Shown here in pieces: positions 1-45,244 of a DNA stretch of 64,000 nt. The position numbers were made by a program, and so were the translations under genes. The DNA comes from Alicyclobacillus pomorum DSM 14955 (lineage in GTDB: Bacteria > Bacillota > Bacilli > Alicyclobacillales > Alicyclobacillaceae): positions 121,169-185,168 of the forward strand of contig NZ_AXAR01000004.1 in NCBI RefSeq assembly GCF_000472905.1. The letters are read 5' to 3'. Below the pieces are notes generated by a model. The model made no database searches. It was not told where the DNA came from and saw only the letters and a program-made list of their open reading frames with translations. Within the stretch, counting starts at the first letter, position 1. Each line of letters begins with the position of its first letter.

Positions 1-31
1 CCGGCCACCTTGCTACACACCAAGGGGCCGG
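1..31 (-). terminator. hairpin, possible terminator of the DUF1906 gene
   Basis: An inverted repeat pairs CCGGCC-CCTT with AAGGGGCCGG (one bulged A). It lies just downstream of the minus-strand gene ending at 67. The T-run that would confirm termination would fall left of the window, so this is tentative. Confidence 0.3.
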
Positions 32-6321: not shown

Positions 6322-7932
6322 TCATTTGTACAAGTGATTCAGTGCAGATCTGAGTAGAAATTGTTTACAGCTGGTGTTACTCACGGCTTCCAGTCTCGGA
6401 ACCCCCAAAACCTCCAAGAGGGCACCTAACTTGTGGTTACACTCCTGCCATTCCTGTTCCGGATTGCTGTCGGCGACAATGCCCGCTCCCGCTTGTACGT
6501 AGTATGTCCCTTGGTGCTCCACCACCGTTCGAATGACGATGGCCGTGTTGGCATTTCCGTCGAAGTCTATGATACCCACCATGCCTCCGTAGGGTCCACG
6601 TCGATAGAGTTCCAGTTCGTCAATAATCTCCATAGCACGTATTTTCGGTGCACCGGACAACGTGCCAGCCGGAAACGTCGCCAGCAACGCGTGAAATACG
6701 CTCACATCGTTGCGCAACACGCCCGTGACCCTGGAGACAAGGTGAAACAAGTGAGAGTATGCTTCCACGGTGAGAAATTCGTCCACTGTCACCGAACCGT
6801 ACTCACATACACGTCCGAGGTCGTTCCTGCAAAGGTCCACCAACATGACGTGTTCGGCGCGCTCCTTCTCATCAGACAGTAGACGCTTTATCAACGCTTC
6901 GTCCTCTGCAACCGACCTCCCCCGTCCCTTCGACGTTCCCGCAATCGGCTTCATCTCGGCCACACCGCCTACCGCACGGAACTGAACTTCTGGACTCGCT
7001 CCGAACAACCGCATATCCGGGTACTCCGCCATGAACATGTACGGAGACGGGTTCACAGCGCGCAACTTCTCGTATACGGTGTAGTGATGCATGCGCTTGG
7101 GCACCCGTAGCCGCTTTGAAAGCACAACCTGAAAAATATCTCCCGCCCGAATATACTCCCTCGCGGCCTCGACATTCGCGATAAATCGTTCTCGGGACAC
7201 ATCTTCCACAGCCGAGGCCATTGCATCCACGTGTGGGGTCTGTCGGGGAGGCGTGCCCTGAACGCGCGCCTCAACCATCGCGTACCGAACCGCTTCTACC
7301 TGGCGCGCCCACCGTTCCCATTCATTGTCCGATAAGACAGGTTCCAGGAAAGGTAGTGCGTCGTACACGGAAGCCCCGTCGTCGTTGAGATGCGCCACGG
7401 CAGCGTACCATTGAAGTCGGACATCGGGTAAGCCTCTGTCGTCCAACGTGGTCTTTGGCAACGCCTCGAGGTAGTGAACCGCGTCGTATCCAATGTAACC
7501 AAATAAGCCGGTCGAGAAGGGCGGGCCTGCGTCGACTGGATGATTGGCTCGGATGGCCTGACGAATGCATTCGAGGACAGACATCGGATCAGTAGAACGA
7601 TACCGTAAACAAGGTCCGTCCACGTAACTTTTCATACGGCCTGCGTCGCTTTCGCACACTTCCCTCCATCCCGCCGCAGCCAGTGCATGGCGAAGGTACT
7701 CGGCCAGCCCTGTCAGCGCAAACACGGCAATATCTCCATCCTTGACCTGGAACTCCAGGATTGGCAAGACGCCAATGAGACTCATCCGGTACCCAGTACC
7801 CGTTTCGTTGGCCGCGTCCAGCAAAAACACCTGACCTTCACCAAATTGCTCCGTCAATCCGAGATACGTGTAGAACGGGTCTAAAGTCGCAGCCTTTGCA
7901 TCGAAGCTGTGAGATTGAAATTCATCAGACAC
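6322..7932 (-). CDS. trpE: anthranilate synthase component I
   Basis: 536 residues, chorismate-binding enzyme of tryptophan synthesis working with the glutaminase encoded just upstream. The chorismate domain has AGDIFQVVLSKR (about 265), the PIAGT motif with Ala, which distinguishes TrpE from PabB (PIKGT), then TLSGAPKIRAMEII and GAGIVADSNPEQEW. In the N-terminal domain the LLES motif of the tryptophan feedback site reads LLDA (about 37-40), so inhibition may be altered. The start is GTG at 7932 after GGGGGAGACGTCCT. It lies 28 nt after trpG, apart from any other trp genes in the window. A PabB-like or dual role is possible but less likely. Confidence 0.85.
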   Translation of the reverse strand: MSDEFQSHSFDAKAATLDPFYTYLGLTEQFGEGQVFLLDAANETGTGYRMSLIGVLPILEFQVKDGDIAVFALTGLAEYLRHALAAAGWREVCESDAGRMKSYVDGPCLRYRSTDPMSVLECIRQAIRANHPVDAGPPFSTGLFGYIGYDAVHYLEALPKTTLDDRGLPDVRLQWYAAVAHLNDDGASVYDALPFLEPVLSDNEWERWARQVEAVRYAMVEARVQGTPPRQTPHVDAMASAVEDVSRERFIANVEAAREYIRAGDIFQVVLSKRLRVPKRMHHYTVYEKLRAVNPSPYMFMAEYPDMRLFGASPEVQFRAVGGVAEMKPIAGTSKGRGRSVAEDEALIKRLLSDEKERAEHVMLVDLCRNDLGRVCEYGSVTVDEFLTVEAYSHLFHLVSRVTGVLRNDVSVFHALLATFPAGTLSGAPKIRAMEIIDELELYRRGPYGGMVGIIDFDGNANTAIVIRTVVEHQGTYYVQAGAGIVADSNPEQEWQECNHKLGALLEVLGVPRLEAVSNTSCKQFLLRSALNHLYK

Positions 7933-7960: not shown

Positions 7961-8530
7961 TCAGCTGGCTAGGAAATTTTTGAGGATGGTTTTGCCGTGC
8001 GTCGTCAGAATCGATTCGGGATGAAACTGGACGCCGACCGCACCCGTGGGTACATGCCGAACACCCATGATGATGCCGTCGCACTCTGCTGTCACCCGAA
8101 AATCAGCGGGCAATGTGTCCCTGTCCACAATGAGTGAATGATACCGAGTGGCTTGAAAAGGAGTCGGAACCCCTTCGAAAAGTGCATCTCCAAAGTGATG
8201 AATCATGGAGGTTTTTCCGTGCATCAACTCGCTCGCACGCGTCACCCTCCCCCCAAACGCTTGGGCGAGCGCCTGATGCCCCAAACAGACGCCAAACACC
8301 GGTACACGCCCTGCAAAATAGCGAATGGCATCGAGGGAACAGCCAGCTTCACTGGGCGAGCACGGACCAGGAGACACCAGTACCCGCGAGGGCTTTAAGG
8401 CGATGAGCTCGTCGAGCAGCACGGAGTTGCGTCGAACCTCCACCTCAGCCCCTAGTTCTGCGCAGTACTGAACGAGGTTGTACGTAAAAGAATCGTAATT
8501 ATCAATCACCAACAGCAGGAGACAGCACAT
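7961..8530 (-). CDS. trpG: glutamine amidotransferase (anthranilate/aminodeoxychorismate synthase component II)
   Basis: About 185-189 residues, class I glutaminase that delivers ammonia to TrpE. Visible motifs are [12 protein letters not shown] at the N-terminus, oxyanion motif [11 protein letters not shown], nucleophile GVCLGHQ (Cys about 84) and the catalytic FHPES (His/Glu about 173-175). The exact start is unclear. The ATG at 8530 sits directly on AGAAAGG, and the family normally begins just before [10 protein letters not shown], so TTG or CTG codons 8512-8518 are equally plausible. In Bacilli one subunit often serves both tryptophan and folate pathways. The leader carries a TRAP site and terminator, which favours tryptophan control. 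Confidence 0.88.
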
Positions 8531-8568
8531 CCTTTCTGTTCGCTAAAGTGAGCGGACCAAAAGGGAAC

Positions 8569-8596
8569 AAAAAAACCACAGCAGCATAGCTGTGGT
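8569..8596 (-). terminator. attenuator terminator upstream of trpG
   Basis: Stem ACCACAGC/GCTGTGGT with a 6-nt loop, followed on the minus strand by seven T residues. It lies 40 nt downstream of the TRAP-like repeats and about 40 nt before trpG, so it fits a transcription attenuator and not the end of a gene. Confidence 0.85.
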
Positions 8597-8635
8597 CGAT
8601 GTTGGACGCATATCGACAGACCTATACAAGCGTCG

Positions 8636-8677
8636 CTACCCTCAGGCTACACTACACTCAACTATCTCACTCAGCTC
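8636..8677 (-). promoter_or_regulatory. TRAP-binding site (nine GAG/TAG repeats)
   Basis: On the minus strand the leader contains nine (G/T)AG triplets: GAG, GAG, GAG, TAG, GAG, TAG, TAG, GAG, TAG, spaced by 2,1,1,2,2,2,3,2 nt. The trp RNA-binding attenuation protein (TRAP, MtrB) of Bacilli binds 9-11 such repeats separated mostly by 2-3 nt when loaded with tryptophan. The position upstream of an intrinsic terminator and trpG-trpE fits tryptophan-dependent termination. The gene for TRAP is not in this window, and no long antiterminator is obvious by eye. Confidence 0.82.
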
Positions 8678-8687
8678 AACTGTCTTC

Positions 8688-8716
8688 AGCTTACCGAGGA
8701 ATCCAAGATCCGTCAA
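8688..8716 (-). promoter_or_regulatory. possible sigma-A promoter of trpGE
   Basis: TTGACG (8711-8716), a 17-nt spacer and TAAGCT (8688-8693) on the minus strand, 11 nt before the first TRAP triplet. The -35 box is strong and the -10 box weak. Confidence 0.5.
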
Positions 8717-8781: not shown

Positions 8782-8858
8782 TGGTGGGCCTAAGAGGACT
8801 CGAACCTCTGACCTCACGATTATCAGTCGTGCGCTCTAGCCAGCTGAGCTATAGGCCC
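8782..8858 (-). tRNA. tRNA-Ile(GAT)
   Basis: Acceptor GGGCCTA/TAGGCCC, anticodon stem CACGA/TCGTG with loop CTGATAA (anticodon GAT), encoded CCA. Last gene of the nine-tRNA cluster. Confidence 0.96.
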
Positions 8859-8871
8859 ATGCTTTTCAAGA

Positions 8872-8948
8872 TGGCGGAGCTGACGGGATTCGAACCCGCG
8901 TTCTCCTGCGTGACAGGCAGGCATGTTAGGCCTCTACACCACAGCTCC
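8872..8948 (-). tRNA. tRNA-Asp(GTC)
   Basis: Acceptor GGAGCTG/CAGCTCC, anticodon stem CCTGC/GCAGG with loop CTGTCAC (anticodon GTC), discriminator G and encoded CCA. Confidence 0.96.
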
Positions 8949-8957
8949 ATGTAACTT

Positions 8958-9033
8958 TGGTTGCGGGGGCAGGACTTGAACCTGCGACCTTCGGGTTATG
9001 AGCCCGACGAGCTGCCAACTGCTCCACCCCGCG
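8958..9033 (-). tRNA. initiator tRNA-fMet(CAT)
   Basis: Anticodon loop CTCATAA gives CAT. The first acceptor pair is a C-A mismatch (CGCGGGG/CCCCGCA) and the anticodon stem has three G-C pairs (TCGGG/CCCGA). Both are hallmarks of the bacterial initiator tRNA. CCA is encoded. Confidence 0.95.
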
Positions 9034-9054
9034 GTGGGTGCGCGCATTGCGCAA

Positions 9055-9129
9055 TGGTGGGCGGTGGCAGGATCGAACTGCCGACCCCTCGCGTGTGAAG
9101 CGAGTGCTCTCCCGCTGAGCTAACCGCCC
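9055..9129 (-). tRNA. tRNA-Val(CAC)
   Basis: Acceptor GGGCGGT/ACCGCCC, anticodon stem CTCGC/GCGAG with loop TTCACAC (anticodon CAC), encoded CCA. Confidence 0.93.
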
Positions 9130-9130
9130 A

Positions 9131-9205
9131 TGGTGACCCCAAGGGGATTCGAACCCCTGTTACCGCCGTGAAAGGGCGGTGTCTTAACCACTTGACCATG
9201 GGGCC
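9131..9205 (-). tRNA. tRNA-Glu(TTC)
   Basis: Acceptor GGCCCCA/TGGGGTC with one G-U pair, anticodon stem CCGCC/GGCGG with loop CTTTCAC (anticodon TTC), encoded CCA. Confidence 0.96.
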
Positions 9206-9235
9206 ATTGCGCCACCCGAAGGCGACGGAAACGTT

Positions 9236-9310
9236 TGGCTCCCCGAGTAGGATTCGAACCTACGACCCTCCGGTTAACAGCCGGATGCTCTACCGCTGAG
9301 CTATCGAGGA
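9236..9310 (-). tRNA. tRNA-Asn(GTT)
   Basis: Acceptor TCCTCGA/TCGGGGA with one U-G pair, anticodon stem TCCGG/CCGGA with loop CTGTTAA (anticodon GTT), discriminator G, encoded CCA. Confidence 0.96.
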
Positions 9311-9314
9311 ACGT

Positions 9315-9390
<76 letters not shown>

Positions 9391-9395
9391 ACACA

Positions 9396-9478
9396 TGGTG
9401 CCGAAGGCCGGACTCGAACCGGCACGGTTTCCCGCACGATTTTGAGTCGTGTGCGTCTGCCAATTCCGCCACTTCGGC
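9396..9478 (-). tRNA. tRNA-Leu(CAA)
   Basis: Class II tRNA with a long variable arm. Acceptor GCCGAAG/CTTCGGC, anticodon stem CACGA/TCGTG with loop CTCAAAA (anticodon CAA), encoded CCA. Confidence 0.96.
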
Positions 9479-9479
9479 A

Positions 9480-9556
9480 TGGCGTGCCCGGAGAGATTCG
9501 AACTCCCGACCTCTTGATTCGTAGTCAAGCACTCTATCCAGCTGAGCTACGGGCAC
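9480..9556 (-). tRNA. tRNA-Arg(ACG)
   Basis: Acceptor GTGCCCG/CGGGCAC, anticodon stem CTTGA/TCAAG with loop CTACGAA (anticodon ACG, presumably read as ICG), encoded CCA. First gene of the cluster. Confidence 0.96.
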
Positions 9557-44852: not shown

Positions 44853-45244
44853 ATATCACTGTTAACAATAAATATGAAATGCTCAGAATCTATGACGAGT
44901 ACAATGCGCCTACAATCCATGAGCGTGCGACGGAAACCACGAAACGGGTTACATTACAAAAACGAACATTCGGGAAATTAAAACGAAGGAAGTAGCAGTT
45001 CTGTCGTATTCGCCTACGGGGTTAGCTGTCGGGTTCGGCGAACATCGCCTATGACGAAGCTGCGAGAACAGCCAGTCAATTCACCCCAGAAATTGTGGGT
45101 CCCCCGTTCTCGCACCAGTACCGATGCGAAATTCGGCCCGTCCTAAGTATGCTAGGCAGGGTAAGAAAGGAGATTGTGTGCGAATTCATTTCTGCATGCG
45201 CATCCACGTTTCACGTGACTCAGTACTTACTCCCTCCTCACTGT

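Follow-up and report, generated by a model that had tools for sequence, protein, structure and literature searches.

We found that the leader of the trpG-trpE operon in Alicyclobacillus pomorum DSM 14955 very probably acts as a tryptophan-responsive, TRAP-dependent transcription attenuator. Within the stretch of DNA analysed (64,000 nt, hereafter the window), computation identified a promoter match, an array of (G/U)AG triplets, an intrinsic terminator and complementarity between the array and an arm of the terminator; a TRAP gene in the genome, conservation of the leader in the family and TRAP-like sites at a second trp operon were also found.

Architecture of the trpG-trpE leader and the gene for TRAP

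An earlier note on this DNA had described nine (G/T)AG triplets and an intrinsic terminator in front of trpG-trpE, and all of these elements were found on the minus strand, to which the window coordinates given here refer. A predicted sigma-70-type promoter (8688..8716), with -35 and -10 sequences TTGACG and TAAGCT separated by a 17-nt spacer, is located directly upstream of the triplets, and transcription would be expected to start near 8681. The predicted TRAP-binding array (8636..8677), which is conserved in the family, consists of nine triplets, in the 5' to 3' order GAG GAG GAG TAG GAG TAG TAG GAG TAG, starting at 8677, 8672, 8668, 8664, 8659, 8654, 8649, 8643 and 8638 and separated by gaps of 2, 1, 1, 2, 2, 2, 3 and 2 nt; the sequence from 8681 to 8636 reads AGTTGAGCTGAGTGAGATAGTTGAGTGTAGTGTAGCCTGAGGGTAG. 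The description of this spacing as mostly 2 nt was slightly generous, in that two of the eight gaps are 1 nt, the rest being 2-3 nt. Known TRAP sites have gaps of 2-3 nt between triplets, and since two gaps here are shorter, about eight of the nine triplets are likely to be usable. The array starts at about +5 relative to the predicted start of transcription, with no 5' stem-loop preceding it, and is followed by about 40 nt of other sequence and then by the terminator hairpin (8569..8596), which has a perfect 8-bp stem (ACCACAGC/GCTGTGGT), the loop TATGCT and an unbroken U run.

The region immediately 5' of trpG (8526..8558) contains a short imperfect hairpin (GGTCCGCT/AGCGAAC), at a position where several relatives have a clear one (TTCAGCTC/GAGCTGAA) just before trpG, and the Shine-Dalgarno sequence AGAAAGG; its function is putative. 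No triplets are present at this Shine-Dalgarno sequence, the array being about 100 nt upstream. The gene trpG (7961..8530), encoding the glutamine amidotransferase of anthranilate synthase, matched TIGR00566 with 232 bits (cut-off 121), but its start codon is uncertain (8516-8530), as the first in-frame ATG touches the Shine-Dalgarno sequence and CTG is present where relatives have ATG. For trpE (6322..7932), encoding anthranilate synthase component I, the best NCBIfam model was TIGR00564 trpE, with 441 bits, which is below the cut-off of 517.7.

The earlier note had named mtrB, which encodes TRAP, and anti-TRAP as genes to look for, and only the former was found in this genome. The lack of any mtrB homologue, which the note gave as the outcome that would refute its reading, is therefore not the case. 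A profile search of the genome located mtrB at G000:C7:67662-67859(-) (115.9 bits; cut-off 21.3), and its product also scored above the curated cut-off of the NCBIfam MtrB equivalog NF009724. Solved TRAP structures were the closest matches of this protein among structures and aligned with it over the whole core, and residues K37, K56 and R58, known to bind RNA in B. subtilis TRAP, were all kept in the alignment. The neighbours of mtrB, named by eye from their translations, look like an HU gene upstream and the genes for heptaprenyl diphosphate synthase, menG and ndk downstream, an order resembling that of B. subtilis. Across the family, TRAP was detected in 38 of 41 genomes, and across the order in 54 of 59. 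Anti-TRAP (PF15777) gave no match in this genome and was above the cut-off in 5 of the 41 family genomes; the mechanism does not require it.

Leaders of relatives and the trpDCFBA operon

Arrays were found in front of trpG-trpE across the leaders of the family. In about 20 genomes representing many genera (G000, G016-G024, G028-G030, G032-G034 and G036-G039, with G026, G027 and G040 being less clear), the array is followed by a terminator whose stem is close to CCACAGC/GCTGTGG. These terminator-bearing genomes share a promoter similar to that in the window and at the same place, TTGAC(G/A/T)-16..18-TAAGCT or TAATCT, and because it sits just before the array, most of the mRNAs would carry the array close to their 5' end. 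An array and a terminator also occur in the order's sister family, but there a stem-loop precedes the array, as in B. subtilis, so that the loss of the stem-loop from the trpG leader of the present family looks derived.

In genus g2, which contains Alicyclobacillus, the terminator is absent from 15 of 15 genomes. The trpG leaders of this genus are short and have a few triplets, usually followed by a hairpin and then by further triplets, the Shine-Dalgarno sequence being included in these; one such leader is arranged as GAGCGGAG-GGGGCC-GAAA-GGCCC-GTCGAGATGAGGGGAGCGGAG...ATG. In leaders of this kind a GNRA-capped hairpin (GGGCC-GAAA-GGCCC) splits the array, and the triplets 3' of it lie over the Shine-Dalgarno sequence just upstream of trpG. 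Folding recovered the hairpin in most, not all, of nine leaders tested, and it would need to be looped out of the TRAP ring. This arrangement points to a translational block. We regard it as fairly likely that TRAP control has switched mode within one family at the same trpG-trpE operon, with most genera using transcription attenuation through an array at the extreme 5' end of the mRNA and with TRAP covering the ribosome-binding site directly, by way of a hairpin-interrupted array, in the genus containing Alicyclobacillus, while trpDCFBA carries both modes in tandem.

The trpDCFBA operon, which the earlier note had set apart from trpG-trpE, does lie on a different contig, within an aro-trp cluster that also contains DAHP synthase and, as named by eye, aroC, aroB, tyrA and aroA. 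Its trpD leader has a promoter (TTGACG-17-TAATAT) and then a 5' stem-loop, a first TRAP-like array (C3:108847-108900) and a terminator (C3:108763-108796; ATCCGCAGG...CCTGTGGAT with a T-rich run). Downstream of these, a second array of five to six TRAP-like triplets, GAGTTGAGCAGAGAGGAGTCGAG, lies over the trpD Shine-Dalgarno sequence (G000:C3:108705-108727, minus strand). Two predicted TRAP outputs are therefore present in one leader, a combination recurring across the family: the array and the Shine-Dalgarno triplets recur family-wide, and most genera outside g2 have the terminator as well. When the genome was scanned with a strict four-triplet pattern, seven matches were obtained, of which three fell at trpD, a further one at trpG-trpE and the remaining three in unrelated sequence, compared with eight for a control pattern, so that the strict count alone is not significant and it is the placement that counts; the matches on C4, C7 and C31, in or near unrelated sequence, were discarded as chance. 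Because trpDCFBA has its own array, terminator and Shine-Dalgarno array, through which the same TRAP probably acts, TRAP probably joins the two operons into one regulon.

The proposed switch and competing readings

In a fold made without the 3' arm of the terminator, AGCUG of the first triplets (8676-8672) pairs with CAGCU of the terminator 5' arm (8592-8588), and the pairing is extended by GAU/AUC and GUUG/CAAC. The 5' strand of the proposed antiterminator (8659..8676; AGCUG at 8676-8672, GAU at 8666-8664 and GUUG at 8662-8659) is within the array, and its 3' strand (8588..8604; CAAC, AUC and CAGCU) overlaps the 5' arm of the terminator. When 19 genomes were compared in a fixed register (GCUG-A-N7 versus N7-NN-CAGC), 161 of 209 cells were paired, whereas permuted partners gave 144 (sd 5) and slid registers 43-101. 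Covariation with one genome per genus was only suggestive (54.7/84 versus 48.1 over seven variable pairs, mean p 0.05), and comparative support for the antiterminator appears real but moderate. Single-sequence folding alone was unconvincing for the window: array-to-arm pairing amounted to 4 bp, little better than the mean of 3.4 with shuffled spacers, and the antiterminator, at -25.2 kcal/mol versus -32.7 kcal/mol for an alternative containing the terminator, is not the minimum-energy fold. Because the antiterminator is less stable than the terminator fold, read-through without TRAP would have to be kinetic, through folding during transcription.

From these elements we infer a switch extending from the start of transcription and TRAP binding to termination in vivo and the response to tryptophan. 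Transcription would begin almost at the first triplet and, with tryptophan plentiful, Trp-loaded TRAP would wrap the (G/U)AG array as it emerged from the polymerase. A wrapped array could not pair with the sequence leading up to and into the terminator 5' arm; the terminator would therefore be left to form, and its 8-bp hairpin would stop RNA polymerase before trpG. With tryptophan scarce, TRAP would be off the RNA, the array (GAGCUGAG...) would pair with ...CCACAGC as the antiterminator, and trpG-trpE would be transcribed.

TRAP might instead force termination directly at the polymerase, the antiterminator being unimportant. Such a reading would agree with the behaviour of B. subtilis TRAP, which terminates in vivo with the attenuator mutated or deleted (PMC3913778), and with the energies of the window folds, but we consider it unlikely, since the array and the terminator arm pair in register across genera and a terminator with a perfect stem and an unbroken U run must be opposed by something if read-through is to occur. 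The switch proposed above is compatible with TRAP also acting directly on the polymerase, as in B. subtilis (PMC3913778). We find it more doubtful still that TRAP binds the array with its main effect on trpG translation, by a Shine-Dalgarno hairpin being exposed or induced, and with the terminator playing a minor part. The g2 leaders, all 15 without a terminator and with triplets directly over the Shine-Dalgarno sequence, are consistent with translational control, as are the Shine-Dalgarno hairpin of some terminator-bearing relatives (TTCAGCTC/GAGCTGAAAGG), which could pair with the array through its 5' arm, and such a layer in B. subtilis trpE (PMC11255114). However, the window leader keeps a strong terminator that is conserved in about 20 genomes, and at its trpG Shine-Dalgarno sequence there is only an imperfect hairpin, free of triplets.

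The adjoining tRNA cluster reported in the earlier note is real, comprising nine genes (8782-9556, minus strand), and a tRNA gene ends directly upstream of the trpG leader also in G016, of the same genus, and in several other family genomes, even though the leader carries a promoter of its own. Its position directly upstream could be taken to mean that the triplets are chance and that the hairpin constitutively terminates transcripts reading through from the cluster, an explanation to which we attach almost no weight. The cluster has a separate terminator (8762-8742, minus strand; GGGACC-GCAA-GGTCC-T6) between it and the trp promoter, because of which the adjacency looks incidental, and the arrangement is conserved in genera whose leaders have no tRNA genes upstream. 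Among 20,000 second-order Markov sequences, each 250 nt long, triplet chains with gaps of 1-3 nt reached a maximum of 5, versus 9 observed, and those with gaps of 2-3 nt a maximum of 4, versus 6 observed; the array score was 8.0, versus a shuffle maximum of 4.8, and the nine-triplet chain is the longest in the window with both strands counted. The TRAP gene in the genome also argues against chance. Leader-peptide attenuation was rejected as well, because the leader has no run of Trp codons, with just a single UGG, located in an unpromising ORF that overlaps the terminator.

Comparison with known systems

T-box trp operons of Firmicutes likewise employ RNA-based attenuation, sensing uncharged tRNA-Trp. 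A T-box leader was rejected here, as the window has no match to RF00230 at the Rfam gathering score; T-boxes are present elsewhere in this genome. The window also contains a c-di-AMP riboswitch (44996-45148, minus strand; RF00379, 78.5 bits versus a gathering score of 38).

TRAP is a model of RNA-based metabolic control known mainly from Bacillus, and a search of the open-access literature found no papers on TRAP sites in Alicyclobacillaceae. The present system differs from its closest known counterparts, the B. subtilis trpE attenuator and trpG site, in that both halves of a split pathway have predicted TRAP sites, in the 5'-terminal position of the array, in the strength of the terminator and in the probable change of mode in the family. 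TRAP apparently acts on both operons, the leaders of which are built differently, and the output step used at one and the same gene seems to vary among members of the family. This offers a natural series in which to study how an RNA switch shifts between transcriptional and translational output, and whether it can do without the 5' stem-loop and anti-TRAP.

The present leader resembles that of B. subtilis trpEDCFBA in having a promoter, a (G/U)AG array, a competing antiterminator and terminator, an anthranilate synthase gene next and MtrB as regulator, with the antiterminator and the regulation being predicted here. The reading in the earlier note is supported by mtrB, the conserved array and terminator, and an alternative pairing that overlaps the terminator 5' arm across genera, but its term "textbook" has to be qualified. 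The trp leader of B. subtilis carries 11 triplets preceded by a 5' stem-loop, and its attenuator is weak (PMC3913778), whereas the present one has eight to nine triplets from about +5, two 1-nt gaps, no 5' stem-loop, which is an accessory rather than a defining feature, a strong terminator and an operon of trpG-trpE only; moreover, no anti-TRAP was found in the genome, and the other trp operon also carries predicted TRAP sites. In B. subtilis trpG (pabA), TRAP covers the ribosome-binding site and blocks translation (PMC11255114, PMC4347634). The present leader is similar in having a predicted TRAP site before trpG but differs in that the array is far upstream and is followed by a terminator, whereas the trpG leaders of genus g2 are of a kind similar to that of B. 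subtilis trpG.
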